Source: Leucobacter soli (GTDB taxonomy: Bacteria; Actinomycetota; Actinomycetes; Actinomycetales; Microbacteriaceae). Taken from it: DNA of 64,000 bases. Positions 17,807 through 38,465 of the stretch are shown here, piece after piece. The notes under the pieces are model-generated. The model did no database searches and was not told where the DNA came from. It saw nothing but the letters and a program-made list of their open reading frames with translations. The translations under genes were made by a program, and so were the position numbers. The stretch spans positions 62,001-126,000 of the forward strand of contig NZ_CAJVAP010000007.1 in NCBI RefSeq assembly GCF_910593785.1, in the 5' to 3' direction. Positions within the stretch are counted from its first letter, which is position 1. Every line of letters starts with the position of its first letter.

Positions 17807-17883
17807 GAAACTGTACGTTTTCGTCGAGACGGTACGCGATCGACGCGCAAACAGGTACTGCTTCGACGAAAACGTACAGTTTC
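17807..17883. repeat. Perfect 21-bp inverted repeat with 35-nt spacer
   Basis: Arms 17807-17827 and 17863-17883 are exact reverse complements (GAAACTGTACGTTTTCGTCG plus one more base). They are clearly AT-richer than the surroundings. The element sits between xseA and xseB. It could fold as a long hairpin or be a remnant of a small mobile element; no gene lies between the arms. Confidence 0.8.
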
Positions 17884-19273: not shown

Positions 19274-19415
19274 GGGCGTGTCTGCTGGATCACTGCTTCG
19301 ACGTCGATGCGCCGGCAATCCCGGGGAAGCGAATTCGCGCGGACGGGGGAGTGAGTTCACGCGGAAGGGTCGGCGGCGCGGACCGCCAGGCGTGCGAAAC
19401 CCCGTCGGAACCGGC

Positions 19416-19444
19416 TTGCGGCTTCGGCGACCCGGCAGTACCAT
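19416..19444 (+). promoter_or_regulatory. Candidate promoter of the deacetylase-like gene
   Basis: TTGCGG and TACCAT are separated by 17 nt. The -10 box ends 7 nt before the palindromic operator at 19452, so a bound repressor would cover the transcription start. Confidence 0.6.
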
Positions 19445-19451
19445 CCCAAGT

Positions 19452-19467
19452 GCAGGAACGTTCCCGC
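19452..19467. promoter_or_regulatory. LacI-type operator, copy 1
   Basis: Palindrome GCAGGAACGTTCCCGC with the central CG typical of LacI-family sites. An identical copy lies at 21892, within an 18-nt identity (TGCAGGAACGTTCCCGCG). A LacI-family regulator is encoded between the two sites. Confidence 0.75.
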
Positions 19468-19528
19468 GAGTGATCCCCGAACCGCTCGATTCCGCTTCGG
19501 CGACGACGACGCCCAGGGACCCCGCACC

Positions 19529-19538
19529 TGCTCGAGCA
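19529..19538. promoter_or_regulatory. Second shared palindrome TGCTCGAGCA, copy 1
   Basis: A perfect 10-bp palindrome within a 19-nt block (19527-19545) identical to 21984-22002, overlapping the Shine-Dalgarno AAAGGAG. It may be a second operator or a translation-control element. Confidence 0.5.
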
Positions 19539-19553
19539 AAGGAGCCAAGGATC

Positions 19554-20681
19554 ATGAATCAGCGACGCCGCACCGGGTACGTCTGGGATGAGCGCTACGC
19601 CTGGCACGACACCGGCACGCATGCGGGGATCTTCCCCTCCGGCGGCTACGTGCAGCCCTACCACAACTTCGAGAGCCCGGAGTCGAAGGCCCGCATGGCC
19701 GCGCTCGTCGAGGTCTCGGGCCTGATCGACAGCCTGGTGCGCATCCCGGCCCGGCCCGTGACGGAGGAGGATCTCCTCCGCGTCCACACGCAGCGGCACG
19801 TCGACAGCATCCGGGAGCAGTCGGAGGCGTCGGGCGGCGACGCCGGCGACGGCTTCTCGCCCTTCGGCCGCGGCTCGTACGAGATCGCGAAGCTGGCGGC
19901 CGGCGGTACGCTCGCCGCCGCCGAGGCCGTGCTCGACGGCACGGTCGACAACGCCTACGCCCTCGTGCGCCCGCCGGGGCACCACGCCGAACCCGACCTG
20001 GGTCGCGGCTACTGCCTCTTCTCCAACGTGTCGGTCGCGATCCAGGCGCTTCGGGCCGCGGGCCGCGTGCAGCGCGTGGCGATCTTCGACTACGACGTGC
20101 ATCACGGCAACGGCGCCCAGAAGATCTTCTGGGACGATCCGAACGTGCTGACCATCTCGGTGCACCAGGATCGCCTGTTCCCCGTGGACAGTGGCCTCGT
20201 GGACGAGCAGGGCGAGGGCGCCGGTGCGGGGACCAACATCAACATCCCGCTGCCTGCGGGCTCGGGTGACGGCGCCTACTGGTCGGTGGTCGACGAGGTG
20301 GCGGTGCCGGCGATCCGCGCGTTCGCGCCGGATCTCATCATGGTGTCGAGCGGCTTCGACCCGTCGGCGTTCGACCCGCTCGGCCGCATGAGCGTGACCT
20401 CCGGGGGGTTCAAGGGGATGGCGGAGCGGCTGCTCGCCGTCGCCGACGAGGTGTGCGGCGGCAAGATCGTCTTCTCGCACGAGGGCGGGTACTCGCCGGT
20501 GCATGTTCCGTTCTGCGGGCTCGCGGTGCTGGAAGCGCTGAGCGGGGTCGAGACGGGCGTCGAGGATCCGGTGAACATCTCGGTCGGGGATTCCCCGACC
20601 CGTGCGCTTACCGCTTGGCAGACGGAGACGATCGAGCGCTCGGCGCAGCTCGCGCGCGCACTGGGGATGATCGTGGGCTGA
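19554..20681 (+). CDS. Class II histone deacetylase-like zinc amidohydrolase
   Basis: 375 aa protein of the arginase/deacetylase fold. Zinc ligands Asp181 and His183 (FDYDVHHGNG) and Asp269 (SSGFDP) are present, with the active-site histidines His143-His144 (PPGHHAEPD) and the transition-state tyrosine near residue 313 (HEGGYSP). Bacterial relatives remove acetyl groups from polyamines or other N-acyl amines; a protein target cannot be excluded. The ATG is chosen for its AAAGGAG site; the frame continues open upstream through the promoter. It shares operator and leader motifs with the ABC importer at 22010. Confidence 0.92.
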   Translation: MNQRRRTGYVWDERYAWHDTGTHAGIFPSGGYVQPYHNFESPESKARMAALVEVSGLIDSLVRIPARPVTEEDLLRVHTQRHVDSIREQSEASGGDAGDGFSPFGRGSYEIAKLAAGGTLAAAEAVLDGTVDNAYALVRPPGHHAEPDLGRGYCLFSNVSVAIQALRAAGRVQRVAIFDYDVHHGNGAQKIFWDDPNVLTISVHQDRLFPVDSGLVDEQGEGAGAGTNINIPLPAGSGDGAYWSVVDEVAVPAIRAFAPDLIMVSSGFDPSAFDPLGRMSVTSGGFKGMAERLLAVADEVCGGKIVFSHEGGYSPVHVPFCGLAVLEALSGVETGVEDPVNISVGDSPTRALTAWQTETIERSAQLARALGMIVG

Positions 20682-20758
20682 TCGTCGTTCGGAGCGAGCC
20701 GGGGTCTCGGACGCCCCGGGACGCCCGAGCCGGTCGAATCGCGAGGCGGCACGGTGGC

Positions 20759-20764
20759 TAAGCT
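20759..20764 (+). promoter_or_regulatory. Putative -10 box (TAAGCT), leaderless start of the LacI gene
   Basis: TAAGCT ends 7 nt before the GTG at 20772, which supports that start over the in-frame GTG at 20754. Confidence 0.45.
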
Positions 20765-20771
20765 AAGCAAG

Positions 20772-21794
20772 GTGAGCTACACCGCCGTGACCATCGTCGA
20801 CATCGCCCGTGAACTGGGGATATCGAAGACGACGGTCTCGTCGGCGCTGCACGGCAACGGGCGCGTATCCGAGGCGACCCGCACGCTGGTGACCGAGACG
20901 GCGGAACGGCTGGGCTACGTCTCGAATCGGGCCGCCCAGCGACTCCGCGGCAGCCGATCGCAGAGCATCGGCCTGCACCTCTTCCCGAACAGCCACGGGC
21001 GGAACTTCTACATGCAGTTCGTGTTCGGCGCGATGGAGCACGCGGCCGACAGAAGCCTGGACCTGACCCTCCTCACGGAGAACCGCCTCCATCCGCGGCG
21101 GCGCAGCCTGTGGGCCGACGGCATGCTGGTGCTGGATCCGGCGCCGAACGATCCCTTCATCGAGCAGGTGTCGCGGACCGGCATCCCGGTGGTCGCGGTC
21201 GGTGCGCTCTCGCCCGAGCAGCGGGGCCTGGTGCGCGGCCAGTTCTCGGGCGGGCAGGACGAGTTCACCCCGATCGTGCTCGAGCGCCTGCACGCCGAAG
21301 GCGTCCGCCGCCCCGCGATCGTCGCGCTCGATGAGGGGGTCGAGCCGCTCTGGGCCGTGCAGGCGCGCGAGATCTATCTCGATTGGATGCGGCGCGAGGG
21401 GGTCGAGCCGCTGGTGCTGCGCGCCGGGTTCTGGCCCTCGGGCGAGGAGATCGAGCGCATGGTGGACGCGCTCGAGGAGGCGGGGGACGTCGACGGGGTC
21501 CTGGTCGTGCAGCAGGGCGTCGCCGGCCCCTTCGCGAAGCGCTACCTGGAGCGCCGGGGCGAGGCGATCTGGGTCGCCGCGCTCGCCGCCGACCCCGCCA
21601 CTGAGGGCGGAGTCGAGCAGTTGATGGCGGTCGAGCTCAACGCCCAGTCGTTCGGACGCCGGGCGGCGCAGTTCCTCACCGGACTGATCGACGGCGAGGG
21701 CGAGGGATTCGAGTGGCGGGTCAATCGGGAGATCTCGCTGCTCGTCCACGGGCGGACGCCCGAGTCGCTCTTCCCCGATGACGAAGACGCCTGA
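20772..21794 (+). CDS. LacI-family transcriptional regulator
   Basis: 340 aa DNA-binding regulator. The N-terminal helix-turn-helix and hinge are textbook LacI (VTIVDIARELGISKTTVSSA, later RLGYVSNRAAQRLRG), followed by a periplasmic-binding-like effector domain. The start at 20772 puts the helix-turn-helix at the very N-terminus and follows a leaderless -10 box; a GTG six codons earlier with a GAGG site is the alternative. It lies between two identical CG-centred palindromes and probably represses both the deacetylase gene and the importer operon. The inducer is probably the imported compound or a derivative. Confidence 0.93.
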   Translation: MSYTAVTIVDIARELGISKTTVSSALHGNGRVSEATRTLVTETAERLGYVSNRAAQRLRGSRSQSIGLHLFPNSHGRNFYMQFVFGAMEHAADRSLDLTLLTENRLHPRRRSLWADGMLVLDPAPNDPFIEQVSRTGIPVVAVGALSPEQRGLVRGQFSGGQDEFTPIVLERLHAEGVRRPAIVALDEGVEPLWAVQAREIYLDWMRREGVEPLVLRAGFWPSGEEIERMVDALEEAGDVDGVLVVQQGVAGPFAKRYLERRGEAIWVAALAADPATEGGVEQLMAVELNAQSFGRRAAQFLTGLIDGEGEGFEWRVNREISLLVHGRTPESLFPDDEDA

Positions 21795-21853
21795 TCGATC
21801 GCGGATGGCCTCGGGGCCGGATCCGAATCTCGTCGATAACGATTGAGAACCTC

Positions 21854-21884
21854 TTGCGGGCGAGCCCGCTGGTCGTGTTAGCAT
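21854..21884 (+). promoter_or_regulatory. Candidate promoter of the sugar-type ABC operon
   Basis: TTGCGG and TAGCAT are separated by 19 nt. As in copy 1, the -10 box ends 7 nt before the operator palindrome. Confidence 0.5.
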
Positions 21885-21891
21885 CTCCAAT

Positions 21892-21907
21892 GCAGGAACG
21901 TTCCCGC
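21892..21907. promoter_or_regulatory. LacI-type operator, copy 2
   Basis: Identical to the site at 19452 and placed at the same distance from its -10 box, upstream of the binding-protein gene. Confidence 0.75.
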
Positions 21908-21985
21908 GTCCGTCCGCGAATGTCGCTCCCCGGAGCCGCACCGCTTCCGGACCGTGAACGATCGGAACGGACGGGCCCGTTCTCC

Positions 21986-21995
21986 TGCTCGAGCA
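21986..21995. promoter_or_regulatory. Second shared palindrome TGCTCGAGCA, copy 2
   Basis: Part of the 19-nt block shared with 19527-19545, again just before the ribosome site. The spacing to the upstream operator differs between the two copies (about 74 nt and 91 nt centre to centre). Confidence 0.5.
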
Positions 21996-22009
21996 AAGGA
22001 GCTATGGAC

Positions 22010-22990
22010 ATGAAACATTCACGCCGCACACTGGGCGTCGTCGCACTCACCGCAGCCGCCGCACTCGCGCTCTCCGGATGCGCATCGGACGGCTCGGGCG
22101 GAGGGGGCTCGGACTCCTCGAAGGGCGCGGTCGCGATGAGCTTCGCGGGCCTCGACATCCAGATCTGGAACGACATGCTCCCCTTCATGGAGACCGTCGT
22201 GACCGACGCCGGCTTCGAGTTCGTCACCGACGACCCGAAGTGGGACGTCAACACGCAGGTCTCCGACTGGGAGTCGTGGATCGTGCGCGGCGACATCAAG
22301 GCGATCATGGGCTATCCCGCCCAGTCGGACGCGATGGTCGCGGTGACGCAGCAGGCGACCGACGCGGGCATCCCCGTGCTCGGCTACGGCAGCACCTGGG
22401 AGGGCGTGCAGGCCGCCGTCGTCCTCGACCACAAGGCCGATGGGCTGAAGGCCGGCGAACGCGCCGCGGAGTGGATCAAGGAGAACTACGGCGACGAGAA
22501 GGTCGACGTCGGGTTCCTCGGCTACCCCGACACCGACCTGGGGCGCCTCCGCGGCGAGGGCATCAAGGAGGCGCTCGACGCCGCCGGCCTCAACCTCAAC
22601 ATCAACGAGCACAGCGTGCTCAACCTCGACGACGGCTACGCCGCCGCCCAGAATCAGCTCAACGCGTTCCCCGACACCAAGGTGTGGCTCGCGATCGCCA
22701 ACGATCCCGCCCTCGGCGCCTACCAGGCGCTGATCGACTCGGGCGTCTCGCCGACCGATGACAGCATGCTGCTGCTCAACCTCGACGCGACCGATGCCGA
22801 GCTGAAGATCATCGGCGAGGAGGGATCGTTCTGGCGCTACGCCTTCATCCCCGTCACCCGGCAGATCGCCGAGGCGAATGCGGCCATGCTGGTCGCCGCC
22901 GCCAACGGAGAGCCCGTCGAGGACAAGGTGATCCCGACCACCGAGGTCACGAGCGCCAACGCGCTGGACTACCTCCTCGAGAACCAGTAG
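22010..22990 (+). CDS. Sugar-type ABC transporter substrate-binding lipoprotein
   Basis: 326 aa periplasmic-binding-protein-like lipoprotein of the ribose/galactose class. The signal peptide ends in the lipobox LSGC with the lipidated cysteine at residue 24, followed by a Gly/Ser linker. The mature part shows the alternating Rossmann-like lobes (GDIKAIMGYPAQSDAMVAV, IPVLGYGSTWEGVQAAVVLD, DVGFLGYPDTDLGRLRGEGI). I start at the second ATG because AAAGGAG then lies 8 nt upstream; the ATG two codons earlier is too close. It is the first gene of a LacI-controlled importer operon. The ligand is unknown. Confidence 0.92.
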   Translation: MKHSRRTLGVVALTAAAALALSGCASDGSGGGGSDSSKGAVAMSFAGLDIQIWNDMLPFMETVVTDAGFEFVTDDPKWDVNTQVSDWESWIVRGDIKAIMGYPAQSDAMVAVTQQATDAGIPVLGYGSTWEGVQAAVVLDHKADGLKAGERAAEWIKENYGDEKVDVGFLGYPDTDLGRLRGEGIKEALDAAGLNLNINEHSVLNLDDGYAAAQNQLNAFPDTKVWLAIANDPALGAYQALIDSGVSPTDDSMLLLNLDATDAELKIIGEEGSFWRYAFIPVTRQIAEANAAMLVAAANGEPVEDKVIPTTEVTSANALDYLLENQ

Positions 22991-23107: not shown

Positions 23108-24580
23108 ATGAGCAGTCCTGAGACGAGGATCGCGTTCGAGGGCGTGACGGTCGACTTCGGTGCGACCCGAGCACTCGATGACATCCGATTCGAAGTCGCG
23201 CCGGGCGAGATCGTCGGCCTGCTGGGCCACAACGGAGCAGGGAAGAGCACGCTCTTCAACGTCACCACCGGGGTCATCGACGCGACGAGCGGCGGATTCA
23301 CGATCGACGGCACCCGCATCGACGGCCGCCTCAGCCCGCGCGCCGCCGCCGAGCTCGGCATCACCGTCATCCACCAGGAGCCGGCGCTCGCGCCGAACAT
23401 GTCGGTGCTCGACAACCTCTTCCTCGCCCGCGATGCGCCGAGGGGTCCAGAGCGCGTCGCCCGTGCACGGGAGGCGCTCGCGACGGTCGGCGCCCGGCTG
23501 CCGCTCGACATGCCGGTGGAGGCGCTCGGCCTCGGCGAACGGCAGCTGGTCGATCTCGCCCGCGGCCTGCTCTCGGGCGAGATGAAGGTGCTGATGCTCG
23601 ACGAGCCGACGGCCGCGCTCGGCAAGGCGGAGACCGAGTCGTTGCACGCGCTGATCCGAGACTTCGCCGCGCGCGGGGTGTCCGTGCTCTACGTGTCGCA
23701 CCGCCTGCCCGACATCCTCGAGGTGTGCACCCGCATCGTCGTGCTGCGCGGGGGCCGGCTGGTCGTCGACGGGCCGGCGGCCGACTTCACGCCGGCGCGG
23801 CTGGCGGAAGCGCTCGTGCCCGATCTGCGCTCGCTCGACTTCAGCCATGTCGAAGCCGGCGACGAGGTCGTTCGCATGACCGTGCCCGGTGGGACCGTGA
23901 CGGCCCGATCCGGCGAGGTGGTCGGCCTCTTCGGCATGGCCGGCGGCGAGCAGTTCCGCATGGCCGCGCAACTCGCGGGCGCCTCCGATCAGGTTCACGA
24001 GTACGTGCTCGCCGGCGAGAGCGTCCGCTTCCGCTCCCCGGGGCAGGCGATACGCAGGGGCGTGTTCTTCGTGCCGCCCGATCGTGAGACCGAGGGGTTG
24101 ATCGCCTCCGAGACCGGCATCGACAACGTCATGCTGCCCTGGTATTCGCAGGGGGCGTCGCGCGGGTGGTGGGTCTCCCGCACTTCCGGCGTCGAGATGT
24201 ACGAGCGCGCACGCACGGGCCTGGACATCCGCGGGCCGGAGGGCACGGCCGAGGTCTCCCAGTTCTCGGGCGGCAACCGTCAGAAGCACCTCCTCGCCCG
24301 CTGGCTCTACCCCGCGGAGCCGAATCTACTGGTCCTCGCCCAGCCGACCCAGGGCGTCGATGTCGGCGCGAAGCTCGACATCGTCGAGGCGGTCCGCGCG
24401 GGGGCGCATCGCGGCGCCGCAGTCGTGGTGGCCTCGAGCGAGTCCGACGAGATCGCGAGCATGTGCGACCGCGCCTACACGGTGCTCGGCGACCGCCTCG
24501 TCGAGGTGCCCCGAACCGCGACCTTCAACGAAGACCTCCTCTCAGCCCTCCTCGCGCTCGCCGAGACGGCGGATGCCTGA
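23108..24580 (+). CDS. Sugar-type ABC transporter ATPase (two fused nucleotide-binding domains)
   Basis: 490 aa RbsA-like ATPase. Domain 1 has Walker A (GHNGAGKST), a signature-like segment LGLGERQLVDLARG and Walker B (VLMLDEPTAALG). Domain 2 has a degenerate Walker A (GLFGMAGGEQF), the signature FSGGNRQKHLLARWL, and a Walker B in which the Asp-Glu pair is replaced (LLVLAQPTQGVDVGA), so it probably cannot hydrolyse ATP. The ATG lies 11 nt after GGAG. It follows the binding-protein gene after the hairpin and precedes the permease by 29 nt. Confidence 0.92.
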   Translation: MSSPETRIAFEGVTVDFGATRALDDIRFEVAPGEIVGLLGHNGAGKSTLFNVTTGVIDATSGGFTIDGTRIDGRLSPRAAAELGITVIHQEPALAPNMSVLDNLFLARDAPRGPERVARAREALATVGARLPLDMPVEALGLGERQLVDLARGLLSGEMKVLMLDEPTAALGKAETESLHALIRDFAARGVSVLYVSHRLPDILEVCTRIVVLRGGRLVVDGPAADFTPARLAEALVPDLRSLDFSHVEAGDEVVRMTVPGGTVTARSGEVVGLFGMAGGEQFRMAAQLAGASDQVHEYVLAGESVRFRSPGQAIRRGVFFVPPDRETEGLIASETGIDNVMLPWYSQGASRGWWVSRTSGVEMYERARTGLDIRGPEGTAEVSQFSGGNRQKHLLARWLYPAEPNLLVLAQPTQGVDVGAKLDIVEAVRAGAHRGAAVVVASSESDEIASMCDRAYTVLGDRLVEVPRTATFNEDLLSALLALAETADA

Positions 24581-24609: not shown

Positions 24610-25638
24610 ATGAACGCTGAACGCCTCAAGATCTTCGTCGCGAAGAACGGGATCTTCCTCGCACTCATCGTGCTCATCGCCGTCTTCTCGATTCTGCGCC
24701 CCAACTTCTTCAGCTTCGCCAACGGCCAGAGCATCCTGATGCAGGCCACCGAGCTCGGCCTCATCGCGATCCCGGCGGCCTTCCTGATCATGTCGGGGAC
24801 CATCGACCTGTCGGTGGGCTCCGTCGCCTCGGCTGCAGCGATCACCGGTGGCATGGCCATGAGCGCCACGGGGTCGACACTGCTGGGGTTCGCCGCCGCG
24901 GTCGTCACGGGCGTCGTCGCCGGTGCGCTGAACGGGTTCCTCGTCTCGTACCTCCGGCTGAACTCGTTCGTGGTCACGCTCGGTGCGCTGAGCGTCTGGG
25001 GCGGCTTCGCCCTGCTGCTCTCGAGCGGCAAGACCATCCCGCGGTCCGAGCTGCCCGATGCCTTCCGCGCGATCGGCACCTTCAAGGTCGGGCCGATCCC
25101 GATCCAGATCATCGCGCTGATCGTCGTCGTGCTGCTGGGCTGGTACGTGCTCAACCACACGAAGTTCGGCAAGCAGGTCCGCGCGATCGGCGGCAACGAA
25201 CGGGCCGCGCGGCTCATGGGAATCGACGTGAAGCGATCCCGATTCCTGCTCTTCGTCGCCTCGGGCGCGTTCGCCGCGCTCGCCGGGATGTTCCTCTCGG
25301 CGAAGGTGCAGTCCGCGAACCCGACCATCGGGTCGGGGCTCGAGCTCGAGGCGCTCACGGTGGTGCTGCTCGGCGGCGTCGCGTTCGAGGGCGGCGTCGG
25401 CCGCATCAGCGGCGTCGTCGCGGGCCTGCTCTTCTTCCGAGTGCTGCGCGCGGGGCTCGTGTTCCTCCAGGCCTCGCCGTTCCTGCAGACCATCCTCGTG
25501 GGTGCGACGCTGATCGTCGCGGTCGGGCTCGACAGCTCGATCCAGAAGATGATCCGCAGTTCGTGGGCGAAGCTCGGACGGAAGGCGGTCGCCGAGGAAG
25601 AGCCGAAGCATCAAGCGCGATCCGGGGGTGCCGTATAG
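24610..25638 (+). CDS. Sugar-type ABC transporter permease (RbsC-like)
   Basis: 342 aa membrane protein with about ten hydrophobic segments. Family features include IMSGTIDLSVGSVASAAA near residue 60 and the cytoplasmic coupling loop GNERAARLMGIDVKRSRF. The final 25 residues are polar. The ATG follows GGAAAG, a modest ribosome site. It is the last gene of the LacI-controlled importer. A single permease gene is normal for the RbsABC class, in which it works as a homodimer. Confidence 0.93.
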   Translation: MNAERLKIFVAKNGIFLALIVLIAVFSILRPNFFSFANGQSILMQATELGLIAIPAAFLIMSGTIDLSVGSVASAAAITGGMAMSATGSTLLGFAAAVVTGVVAGALNGFLVSYLRLNSFVVTLGALSVWGGFALLLSSGKTIPRSELPDAFRAIGTFKVGPIPIQIIALIVVVLLGWYVLNHTKFGKQVRAIGGNERAARLMGIDVKRSRFLLFVASGAFAALAGMFLSAKVQSANPTIGSGLELEALTVVLLGGVAFEGGVGRISGVVAGLLFFRVLRAGLVFLQASPFLQTILVGATLIVAVGLDSSIQKMIRSSWAKLGRKAVAEEEPKHQARSGGAV

Positions 25639-34816: not shown

Positions 34817-35800
34817 ATGAACGCATCCCACACCCTCGGCGACTGGCAGCCCGACCGCAACCTCGCGATGGAGCTCGTGCGCGCGACCGAGGCGGCGGCG
34901 ATCCGGGCCACGCCATGGGTCGGTCGCGGCGACAAGAACGCTGCCGACGGGGCGGCCGTCGACGCGATGCGCCGCTTCCTCTCCACTGTCGCGATGCGGG
35001 GCACCGTGGTGATCGGCGAGGGCGAGAAGGACGACGCGCCCTGGCTCTACAACGGCGAGCAGGTCGGCAACGGCGAGGGCGCCGAATGCGACGTCGCCGT
35101 CGATCCCATCGACGGCACCCGTCTGACCGCGGAGGGCCGCCCCGGCGCGCTCTCGGTCATCGCGGTCGCCGACCGCGGCAGCATGTACGACCCGTCGGCC
35201 GTCTTCTACATGGACAAGCTGGTCTGCGGCCCTGAGGGCGTGGGCATCGTCGACATCGAGCGCCCGATCGGCGAGAACATCCGCGCGCTCGCCCGGGCCA
35301 AGCGCGTCGACGTCAGCGACATCCGGGTCGCCGTGCTGGATCGCCCCCGACACGACCAGCTGATCGCCGACATCCGCGATGCGGGCGCCGGGACGCGCCT
35401 GATCATGGACGGCGACGTCGCCGCCGGTGTGAACGCGGCGCAGTGGGATTCGCGGGTGGATCTCGCCGTCGGCGTCGGCGGAACCCCCGAGGGCATCATC
35501 ACCGCCTGCGCGGTGAAGGCGCTCGGCGGTGTGATCCAGGGCAAGTTGTGGCCGAAGGACGACGAGGAGCGCGAGCAGGCGCTCGCCGCCGGGCACGACC
35601 TCGACCGGGTGCTGCACGCGAACGACCTCGTCGCGAGTGACAACGCGTACTTCGTCGCGACCGGCATCACCTCGGCCGACTTCCTCGACGGCGTGCAGCG
35701 GCGCGGTCCGTTCCTGCGTTCGGAGAGCGTCGTCATGCGCGCCTATTCGGGCACGATCCGGCGCGTCATCACCGACCAGCGTCCGCAGCGCTGGGACTGA
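34817..35800 (+). CDS. glpX: Class II fructose-1,6-bisphosphatase
   Basis: 327 aa GlpX-type phosphatase of gluconeogenesis. Metal-site motifs are present: VVIGEGEKDDAPWLYNGE, CDVAVDPIDGTRLTAEGRPG, and the C-terminal GGTPEGIITACAVKALGG. The ATG follows a leaderless -10 box. In many actinobacteria glpX lies by fumC and DUF4245; here it has moved to face fba. Confidence 0.95.
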   Translation: MNASHTLGDWQPDRNLAMELVRATEAAAIRATPWVGRGDKNAADGAAVDAMRRFLSTVAMRGTVVIGEGEKDDAPWLYNGEQVGNGEGAECDVAVDPIDGTRLTAEGRPGALSVIAVADRGSMYDPSAVFYMDKLVCGPEGVGIVDIERPIGENIRALARAKRVDVSDIRVAVLDRPRHDQLIADIRDAGAGTRLIMDGDVAAGVNAAQWDSRVDLAVGVGGTPEGIITACAVKALGGVIQGKLWPKDDEEREQALAAGHDLDRVLHANDLVASDNAYFVATGITSADFLDGVQRRGPFLRSESVVMRAYSGTIRRVITDQRPQRWD

Positions 35801-35925
35801 GGCCGCTGCCGCTGCCGGGCTGCCGGCGGGCCTGCGCCGAGCTCTGAAGGCCGTCTCCACGAGCCCGTTTCCACGGGCCGGTGGATCGAGCCGACGAGTC
35901 CGAAGGCCGGGCCGAAACGACTGAG

Positions 35926-36510
35926 CTACAGCTTGAGCGGGATCGCGGTGAGGCGCTGCAGTCGCAGACCGGTCGCCCGGGCGAGCGCTGGGAGATCCGC
36001 CGCCCGGTGCCGGCGCGCGGCGTCGACGATGATCGCCGCGCAGGCCTCGGCGTCGGCGAGCGCCTCGTGGTGCGCGAACTCGCCGAAACCCGCCGCCGCC
36101 GCCGAGAGCGGGAGGCGGTGCGATGGGATGTCGTACGTCTTGCGCGAGACCTGCACACTGCAGAGGTAGCGCAGCTTCGGCGTCGGGGTGATGGTCTCGG
36201 CGCAGGCGGCGCGGATCACGCCCATGTCGAAGCCGGCGTTGTGCGCGATCGCAACGTCGCGTCCGATGAACTCGCGCAGCCGGTCGAGCTGCCCCGCCCA
36301 GTCGTCAGCCTCGGCGACCATCTCGGGCGTGATCCCGTGGATCTTGATGTTGAACGGCAGGAACTCGGCATGCGCGGCCGGCGGGCGGATCAGCCAGTCG
36401 TCGCGTTCCACGACGACCCCGTCGCGGACCTTGACGAGTCCCACCGCGCACGCCGACGAAGGATGGCTGTTGGCGGTCTCGAAGTCGATCGCGGTGAAGT
36501 CCACTGGCAC
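35926..36510 (-). CDS. DnaQ-like DEDDh 3'-5' exonuclease
   Basis: 194 aa exonuclease domain protein. The DEDDh residues are visible: Asp and Glu in TAIDFETANS, Asp in HNAGFDMGVI, and His and Asp in HHEALADAEAC. It resembles stand-alone epsilon-like nucleases that act in DNA repair or RNA processing. The GTG reading MPVDFTAIDFE is chosen because AAGG lies 7 nt upstream; an extended N-terminus would add Cys-rich sequence unlike the family. It is convergent with glpX. Confidence 0.9.
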   Translation of the reverse strand: MPVDFTAIDFETANSHPSSACAVGLVKVRDGVVVERDDWLIRPPAAHAEFLPFNIKIHGITPEMVAEADDWAGQLDRLREFIGRDVAIAHNAGFDMGVIRAACAETITPTPKLRYLCSVQVSRKTYDIPSHRLPLSAAAAGFGEFAHHEALADAEACAAIIVDAARRHRAADLPALARATGLRLQRLTAIPLKL

Positions 36511-36564
36511 GCATCTACCTTGGCACACGCCACCGACACGGCATCCACACGGCATCGTCGCGCC

Positions 36565-36592
36565 GGCACTGTCTCGCTGGCACTGTCTCGCT
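36565..36592. repeat. Tandem direct repeat of a 14-nt unit
   Basis: GGCACTGTCTCGCT occurs twice in tandem, followed by more degenerate copies containing GTCTCG to about 36650. It is possibly the remains of an expanded simple repeat. Confidence 0.7.
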
Positions 36593-36705
36593 GGCGCTGC
36601 CTCGACTGCCCCGTCTCGACAATCCCGTCTCGCCGGCGCTGTCTCGGCCGGGGCGTGCGCGCCGGCCGGCCCGCCAGCGCTTCAGCCGTCCGCTCGAAGC
36701 AGAAC

Positions 36706-36771
36706 CGCACCGATCTGCAGGATCGCACACGCAATACTCTGCAACCCTGTGCGATTCTGCAGATCGGTGCG
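36706..36771. repeat. 26-bp inverted repeat with 14-nt loop
   Basis: Arms 36706-36731 and 36746-36771 match in 24 of 26 positions (core CACCGATCTGCAG). A further partial copy of the arm continues to about 36779. It lies about 63 nt before the ychF -10 box. It could form a long hairpin; no gene is carried. Confidence 0.75.
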
Positions 36772-36833
36772 ATCCTGCATCCGCTCGGTCCGGCCGAGGG
36801 CCGCCGAGCGCCCGATCAGCCCGATCCGGCCAG

Positions 36834-36839
36834 TAGACT
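36834..36839 (+). promoter_or_regulatory. Putative -10 box (TAGACT) before ychF
   Basis: TAGACT ends 8 nt before the GTG at 36848. Confidence 0.4.
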
Positions 36840-36847
36840 TGACCCTC

Positions 36848-37921
36848 GTGGCTTTGACTATCGGAATCGTGGGGCTGCCGAACGTCGGCAAGTCGACCCT
36901 CTTCAACGCGCTCACCCAGAACGACGCGCTGGCGGCGAACTACCCGTTCGCCACCATCGAGCCGAACGTGGGCGTGGTGAACCTGCCCGACGCTCGGCTC
37001 GACGCGCTCGCCGAGATCTTCGGGAGCGAGCGGATCCTGCCCGCCCCGGTGAGCTTCGTCGACATCGCCGGCATCGTGCGCGGCGCCAGCGAGGGTGAGG
37101 GACTGGGCAACCAGTTCCTCGCGAACATCCGCGAGGCCGACGCGATCGCGCAGGTGGTGCGCGGGTTCAGCGACCCCGATGTGGTGCATGTCGACGGCGC
37201 GGTGAACCCCGCGAGCGACATGGAGACGATCAACACCGAGCTGATCATCGCCGACATGCAGACCCTCGACAAGGCGCTCGTGCGCTTCGAGAAGGAACTG
37301 AAGAACCGCAAGATCGACGCCTCCGTCGTCGAGACCGCGAAGGCCGCTCGGGCCTCGCTCGACGAGGGCAAGGTGCTCTCGCACGCGGGTATCGACCTCG
37401 AGCCGATCAAGGAACTGGGGCTGCTCACCGCGAAGCCCTTCCTCTACGTCTTCAACGTCGACGAGGCGGTGCTGCAGGATCGCGCGAAGCTCGACGAGCT
37501 CTCGGCGCTCGTTGCGCCGGCGAAGGCGATCTTCCTCGACGCCAAGATCGAGAGCGAGCTCATCGAACTCGATCCTGCCGACGCGAAGGAGCTGCTCGAG
37601 TCCATCGGCCAGGAGGAGAGCGGGCTGGATCAGCTCGCCCGGATCGGCTTCGACACGCTCGGCCTGCAGACCTACCTCACCGCCGGCCCCAAGGAGGCCC
37701 GCGCGTGGACGATCAAGAAGGGCTCGACCGCGCCGCAGGCCGCCGGTGTGATCCATACCGACTTCGAAAAGGGCTTCATCAAGGGCGAGATCATCTCGTT
37801 CGCCGACCTGGTCGAGTGCGGCTCGGTCGCAGAGGCCCGCGCGAAGGGCAAGGCCCGCATGGAGGGCAAGGACTACGTGATGCAGGACGGCGACGTCTGC
37901 GAGTGGCGGTTCAACGTCTAG
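36848..37921 (+). CDS. ychF: Redox-regulated ATPase YchF (Obg-like)
   Basis: 357 aa P-loop NTPase of the Obg family that prefers ATP and binds ribosomes. It has the G1 motif GLPNVGKSTLFNAL, the G3 region DIAGIVRGASEGEGLGNQFL, and the Ade-recognising FNVDE in place of the NKxD of GTPases. The C-terminal TGS domain (FTAGPKEARAW-like region, then EVIS-type GEIISFADL) is complete. Length is normal. It is predicted to be leaderless. Confidence 0.96.
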   Translation: MALTIGIVGLPNVGKSTLFNALTQNDALAANYPFATIEPNVGVVNLPDARLDALAEIFGSERILPAPVSFVDIAGIVRGASEGEGLGNQFLANIREADAIAQVVRGFSDPDVVHVDGAVNPASDMETINTELIIADMQTLDKALVRFEKELKNRKIDASVVETAKAARASLDEGKVLSHAGIDLEPIKELGLLTAKPFLYVFNVDEAVLQDRAKLDELSALVAPAKAIFLDAKIESELIELDPADAKELLESIGQEESGLDQLARIGFDTLGLQTYLTAGPKEARAWTIKKGSTAPQAAGVIHTDFEKGFIKGEIISFADLVECGSVAEARAKGKARMEGKDYVMQDGDVCEWRFNV

Positions 37922-38027
37922 CGCCATCGACGCATTCCGTTGCGCACGCGGCTTGCGGTCGGATCGTTCGCCGATCGAAGACGTGCAGATCGTGGACCAT
38001 CGCTGAGGCGGGCGTGAGCCTCCGGCC

Positions 38028-38465
38028 TCAGGCGAGCTCCTCGGCGAGCCCGATGAGGATCCCCTCGGGCCCGCGGACGTAGCAGAACCGGTACGCGTCC
38101 TCGTACCGCACCACCTCGCCGCCGACGATCTCGGCGCCGTGCGCACGGAGGCGATCGAGCGTCTCGTCGAGGTCGTCCACCGCGAACATCACGCGCAGGT
38201 ACCCCAGGGCGTTCACCGGCGCCTGCCGGTGGTCGGCGACGACCGCCGGCTCGAGGAAGCGCGACAGCTCGAGCCGCCCGTACCCGTCGGGCGTGCGCAT
38301 CATCGCGATCTCGACGCGCTGATCGCCGAGACCGGTCACGCGTCCCGCCCATTCGCCCTCGACCGCGGAACGTCCTTCGAGCTCGAGCCCGAGCTCGCGG
38401 AAGAACTCGATCGCCGCTCCGAGATCCTCGACGACGATGCCGACGTTGTCCATCCTGACCGCCAT
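38028..38465 (-). CDS. VOC-family glyoxalase-like protein
   Basis: 145 aa, two beta-alpha-beta-beta-beta modules of the vicinal oxygen chelate fold: VGIVVEDLGAAIEFFRELGLELEG at the start and LRVMFAVDDLDETLDRLRAHGA in the second half, ending in an ILIGLAEEL strand with the metal-ligand Glu. The substrate is unknown; it could be a glyoxalase, dioxygenase or resistance protein. It is transcribed alone from a leaderless-type promoter. Confidence 0.85.
   Translation of the reverse strand: MAVRMDNVGIVVEDLGAAIEFFRELGLELEGRSAVEGEWAGRVTGLGDQRVEIAMMRTPDGYGRLELSRFLEPAVVADHRQAPVNALGYLRVMFAVDDLDETLDRLRAHGAEIVGGEVVRYEDAYRFCYVRGPEGILIGLAEELA

Follow-up and report, generated by a model that had tools for sequence, protein, structure and literature searches.

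In the Leucobacter soli DNA analysed here (a window of 64,000 nucleotides), a LacI-family protein very probably represses two operons, encoding an HDAC-like amidohydrolase and an ABC importer, by way of two copies of the same sequence, TGCAGGAACGTTCCCGCG; a second sequence shared by the two upstream regions would be an extended Shine-Dalgarno (SD) region, whose palindrome is incidental. According to the proposed mechanism, the LacI protein would bind both copies of TGCAGGAACGTTCCCGCG (consensus TGCNGGAACGTTCCNGCA), each placed just downstream of a -10 element, and the bound repressor would cover the start point. The hdac-lacI transcript (lacI included) and the importer operon would be repressed jointly and released by an inducer, probably an imported amide-type compound or its product.

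The genes of the locus (Table 1) are ordered hdac, lacI, binding protein, ATPase and permease, all on the plus strand, and the original prediction had correctly placed the starts of hdac and the binding-protein gene, as well as the lacI reading frame between them. The lacI gene starts 72 nt downstream of the end of hdac, and because this gap is short lacI is probably repressed together with hdac, the two genes being probably cotranscribed from operator 1, i.e. autoregulation would occur. The HDAC protein contains a Hist_deacetyl domain and the motifs PGHHA, DYDVHHGNG, GFDPS and GGYSP, which we take to be the Zn/catalytic residues of a class II HDAC-like amidohydrolase. Its best solved relatives include dimethoate and propanil hydrolases, with the top chains labelled just deacetylase. 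Two more HDAC-like genes were observed outside the locus in the genome to which the window belongs, G000 (G000:C10:90196-91209 and G000:C7:34196-35197; 54% and 41% identical, respectively).

The N-terminal helix-turn-helix of the regulator is present (PF00356, 43.9 bits, cut-off 27), the effector domain PF13377 matches below its cut-off (E 1.6e-4; 22.3 versus 26.5 bits), and the protein aligns with the LacI-family chain 5ysz across residues 14-316. Its named relatives come from Leucobacter celer subsp. astrifaciens CBX151 and Leucobacter sp. UT-8R-CII-1-4. The importer is of the ribose/arabinose type (CUT2), with a Peripla_BP_4 binding protein, a long AraG/RbsA-type ATPase (whose AraG match is almost full-length) and a BPD_transp_2 permease. 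In the family profile search no equivalog cut-off was reached by the importer proteins. Elsewhere in the window, directly beyond the xseA end, lies an inverted repeat (17807-17883; 29-nt arms, 90% complementary, 19 nt spacing), whose first 21 nt are absent from all 235 fetched loci and from whose arm a 16-nt piece has no further window match at up to 3 mismatches.

Table 1. Positions of genes and sequence elements within the window
Feature	Position	Strand	Remarks
-10-like hexamer TACCAT, HDAC promoter	19439..19444	+	conserved position
operator 1, TGCAGGAACGTTCCCGCG	19451..19468	+	exact shared block, conserved
shared block 2, SD region of HDAC gene	19527..19545	+	AGCRAAGGAGC invariant in 8/8 leaders
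HDAC-like amidohydrolase gene (hdac)	19554..20681	+	PF00850, Pfam E 4e-87
LacI-family regulator gene (lacI)	20754..21794	+	PF00356 E 2e-11; helix SKTTVSSAL
-10-like hexamer TAGCAT, importer promoter	21879..21884	+	conserved position
operator 2, TGCAGGAACGTTCCCGCG	21891..21908	+	exact shared block, conserved
shared block 2, SD region of binding-protein gene	21984..22002	+	
RbsB-type substrate-binding protein (Peripla_BP_4)	22010..22990	+	
AraG/RbsA-type ATPase	23108..24580	+	
AraH/RbsC-type permease (BPD_transp_2)	24610..25638	+	

The only words longer than 8 nt common to both upstream regions are TGCAGGAACGTTCCCGCG (block 1, 18 nt) and CCTGCTCGAGCAAAGGAGC (block 2, 19 nt), the next longest having 8 nt; both blocks are identical at the two promoters, as had been predicted. 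Block 1 had been described as a palindrome centred on CG. The centre was confirmed, and the symmetry proved imperfect in this genome, since an inner A/C pair and the outermost pair of TGCAGGAACGTTCCCGCG are mismatched; relatives carry perfect 18-bp versions (TGCAGGAACGTTCCTGCA, TGCGGGAACGTTCCCGCA and TGCCGGAACGTTCCGGCA). Its fixed distance from the -10 hexamer also stands, with the spacing corrected to 6 nt: in all eight promoters of the ABC group (HDAC or importer), a TANNNT hexamer (TACCAT, TAGCAT, TAACAT or TACGCT) ends exactly 6 nt ahead of the operator, the start codon following 92-119 nt after the first operator base. Because a scan of 19300-22100 for consensus sigma-70 promoters and terminators gave nothing at threshold, the -10 elements are assigned by their conserved position alone. 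An operator located in this way should block the start of transcription when repressor is bound.

Within the window, the core word GGAACGTTCC with at most one mismatch is not enriched (two matches versus a shuffle mean of 1.86). Both matches are exact, and exact matches number three in the 2.87-Mb genome; the third falls inside a reading frame, and no further operator sites were found in this genome. That reading frame presumably encodes a FabG-type reductase, which it resembles.

Comparison across genomes makes it very probable that block 1 is the operator of the LacI protein encoded between the two operons. The original prediction had named a lack of conservation near orthologues as one of the outcomes that would refute it, and conservation is what we observed, together with a CG-centred palindromic operator at promoters, as looked for in a LacI-family system. 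Of 54 Leucobacter genomes, 22 contain the 17-mer TGCNGGAACGTTCCNGC (27 sites; reversed control 0), and at every one of the 27 sites a lacI gene of this subfamily is no more than 1.4 kb away. Searching the genus with the LacI protein gave 20/54 genomes at E<=1e-40 and 23/54 at E<=1e-30 (26 hits). The helix SKT[TA]VS[SDA]AL is present in 22 of these hits, all of which have the site, while the four without it (second copies in G032, G016 and G021, and that of G040) have unrelated helices. In each of the other 19 genomes found at E<=1e-40, an exact GGAACGTTCC stands beside the gene, their lacI genes being 35-80% identical to that of the window and their leaders having otherwise diverged; in two extra site-bearing genomes, G036 and G037, the regulator was found at E 2e-40 and 4e-40. 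This co-occurrence of site and helix in the genus, along with the fixed -10 distance, strongly supports the predicted role of the first palindrome as a LacI-family operator.

In the wider family the 17-mer was found in 12 of 398 genomes (reversed control 1), seven of which contain this LacI subgroup (five Leucobacter, G215 and G303). The remaining five of the 12 count against the operator reading. In three of them (G156, G423 and G213) the 17-mer is near a different LacI, with helix SKSAVSRVL, and in the stretches examined of G055 and G361 (2.3 kb around the site in the latter) no LacI gene was seen near it, the G055 site being inside a reading frame. Loci L127, L128 and L129, from another genus, have a LacI protein with helix SKSAVSRVL near the same operator, which is thus apparently read by a different helix there; a lipoprotein-like gene adjoins the operator in L129.

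The best in-silico evidence that the LacI protein itself reads the site is the covariation of helix and operator in the fetched loci. Helices SKTTVSSAL and SKTAVS[SA]AL pair with TGC[AGT]GGAACGTTCC, SKTTVSDAL with TGCCGGAACGTTCCGGC, SNTTVADAL with TGCCGTAACG, SRTT[VA]SDAL with TGCCGGATCG and, at one locus only, SPTTVSSAL with TGCGGCAACG. Where the seventh helix letter is D, the palindrome is of the TGCC..GGCA type at 10 of 12 loci, and with S or A there this type occurs in none; it was not found for two SKTTASDAL proteins (L051 and L056). The second letter of SxTT/SxTA helices (K, N, R or P) corresponds to GGAACG, GTAACG, GGATCG or GCAACG, respectively, P being represented by a single locus. 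For more distant LacI proteins (e.g. with helix SRSAASFAL) no such palindromes were found in the fetched loci. These pairings of helix residue and operator base give a small, naturally occurring set of cases in which the LacI recognition code may be studied.

The second block, which includes TGCTCG and the SD part AGCAAAGGAGC, has the appearance of a strong ribosome-binding site of the usual kind and not of a further switch. Within it AGCRAAGGAGC is invariant in all eight ABC-group leaders, and the remaining leader is not conserved. The 8 nt of block 2 past this conserved core, CCTGCTCG, are the same in both window promoters, an identity that counts against a plain SD reading and is not fully accounted for by an SD role. 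Two of the three genomic copies of AGCAAAGGAG (a number equal to the reversed control; 2 forward, 1 reverse) are at these genes, which is suggestive only.

The identity of the blocks may also reflect duplication of a promoter and its leader instead of independent selection on two promoters, a possible but rather doubtful explanation. The two blocks come in the same order, and upstream similarity extends past the operator in L028 (TAGCATCTCA, p ~0.007) and L004 (p ~0.02). However, the window regions outside the blocks are not significantly alike (p 0.13 upstream, 0.17 in the leader), nor are the leaders in L004 (p 0.16) or L028 (p 0.42). Orthologous leaders have diverged as far from each other as the two window leaders have, and an old promoter duplication is compatible with the operator reading.

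It is improbable that block 2 acts as an RNA element, e.g. a weak hairpin presenting the SD sequence in its loop (AGC-AAAGGA-GCU in the window, GAC-AAAGGA-GUC in relatives). Complementary triplets do flank the SD sites of the window (19535-19546 and 21992-22003, one pair failing at the HDAC gene), and such 3-nt flanks were counted in 19 of 21 regulon sites versus 2 of 46 other SD sites; moreover, orthologous importer genes differ in both flanks (AGC/GCT versus GAC/GTC). The count covered the loci other than L045-L063 and L112-L132 (other genera) and took SD sites in front of ORFs of at least 150 codons (80 if cut by the locus end), a limit that leaves out the SSS group; identical 30-nt contexts were counted once. 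Yet the sites in the count belong to two or three lineages and are non-independent, the hypothesis is post hoc, the hairpin is weak at -0.7 to -2.2 kcal/mol, the outermost pair is missing in the window HDAC leader and the L004 importer leader, and the SSS group, judged by eye, has no hairpin. GACRAAGGAGTC is also widespread, with 249 sites among the 54 genomes against 27 for the reversed control, and the GAC/GTC form is common in the genus. Taken whole, the eight leaders are no more stably folded than shuffled versions (z -1.64 to +0.94), and the one Rfam match, which is sub-threshold, is located within the HDAC gene; a cis-regulatory RNA was thus indicated neither by Rfam nor by conserved leader structure.

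An auxiliary operator for repressor looping between or within promoters is a highly improbable role for block 2: its TGCTCGAGCA forms an exact, CG-centred palindrome of 10 bp in the two window promoters and the L004 importer promoter, but it is broken in the other five of the eight ABC-group leaders, all of which retain GGAACGTTCC, it is found 65 times genome-wide (27 for the reversed control), it resembles GGAACGTTCC at the central CG alone, and in all 17 MFS- and SSS-type loci the sequence up to 300 nt from the operator contains no TGCTCGAGCA and no AGCAAAGGAG. The suggestion in the original prediction that the second palindrome is an auxiliary operator or an RNA-level control element is therefore not borne out, the palindrome being broken or absent in most of these leaders and loci and the leaders showing no more structure than shuffled ones, and we retain the extended SD region as the preferred reading.

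The genes accompanying the operator in relatives suggest that HDAC-like hydrolases, Amidohydro_3 hydrolases or both are controlled by one LacI/operator pair, along with a transporter that may be of the ABC, MFS or SSS type. Five genomes combine the operator with HDAC and an rbs-type ABC importer, two of them also with Amidohydro_3; in G046 (a 4.4 kb contig) the importer is visible as part of the binding protein, and ATPase matches below 40% identity were left out of the table of regulon genes. An MFS gene accompanies the operator in 14/14 loci, with Amidohydro_3 too in the 12 that are sufficiently long (in G036 and G037 the MFS gene alone is inside the stretch covered), and the operator is found with SSS and HDAC in 3/3 loci. 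Beyond Leucobacter, the operator is accompanied by SSS, HDAC and a distant (35%) Amidohydro_3 in G215 and by MFS and Amidohydro_3 in G303. A perfect 18-bp operator separates lacI from a divergent Amidohydro_3-HDAC pair in L005 and L027. No sugar enzymes were seen in the operons examined, and since what the loci share is the cleavage of amide-like bonds and not the metabolism of sugars, we infer a non-sugar effector. A regulon and a defined operator can thereby be predicted for an anonymous regulator, and the little-understood bacterial HDAC-like enzymes become linked to uptake systems, a link which suggests small-molecule amides rather than proteins as their substrates.

The connection with LacI is not obligatory. 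Close homologues of HDAC (at least 78%) and the binding protein (at least 74%) occur together in 18 genomes of the genus, and in 5 of these the LacI gene and operator are present at the HDAC-ABC locus. In the other 13, hdac and the binding-protein gene diverge, the locus lacks the operator, and no more than 200 nt separate hdac from an Lrp/AsnC gene (62-100% identical to that of G052; PF13404 and PF01037 in the two tested); 8 of these 13 genomes carry the operator at an MFS locus. In the five LacI genomes the sole Lrp-type homologue is distant (41-43%) and located elsewhere, and G006 and G011, whose HDAC and binding-protein genes are less closely related, have neither regulator. Mapped on the HDAC and binding-protein trees, regulator type shows 2 changes, the well-supported branches being also compatible with a single origin. 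Taken together, a swap between LacI and Lrp/AsnC at the HDAC-importer locus is likely, which would provide a case of regulator exchange at one operon. The Lrp-type loci of the 13 genomes (L169, L172-L179, L181, L182, L184, L185 and L191; L227 11114-11638) have an AT-rich intergenic region in which GAATTCAC..CACAA and TGTCGAAACAT-like words recur by eye. In G022 the HDAC-importer-Lrp locus is present twice, inverted and with equal scores (G022:C23:26229-29239 and 35280-38290), representing either a real inverted duplication or an assembly artefact. We consider it an evenly balanced question whether, more generally, this LacI subfamily senses an amide-type non-sugar compound through a near-invariant operator, while enzymes and transporters have been exchanged around it and the regulator itself has traded places with Lrp/AsnC.

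A literature search with operator strings and topic terms returned no paper on this regulon among the matches listed, and GGGAACGTTCCC was found in no paper of the literature searched other than PMC9953190. That paper, in the part considered here, proposes TGGGAACGTTCCCA as the CebR2 site of Streptomyces scabiei, connected with cello-oligosaccharide transport; the MFS-type sites described here share its 12-bp centre GGGAACGTTCCC and differ in the outer bases (TGGG versus TGCG). PMC11532494 describes bacterial HDAC-like deacylases of sub-cluster 1b, among them the dimethoate and propanil hydrolases, which act on small amides. Unlike these enzymes as presented in the main text of that paper, where the word "transporter" does not occur and "operon" occurs once, the HDAC described here is tied to an importer and a LacI gene. 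According to the portion of PMC4052901 drawn on here, even palindromes with a central CG are recognised by 1173 of 1303 LacI-family TFs, and most effectors of the family are carbohydrates. The present system resembles the LacI regulons of that study in its even, CG-centred palindrome and in a local regulator adjoining transporter and enzyme genes, and is unlike them in that the enzymes are amide hydrolases. CG-centred LacI operators are thus already the rule, and it is the context of this one, among amide hydrolases and transporters, that is of interest.
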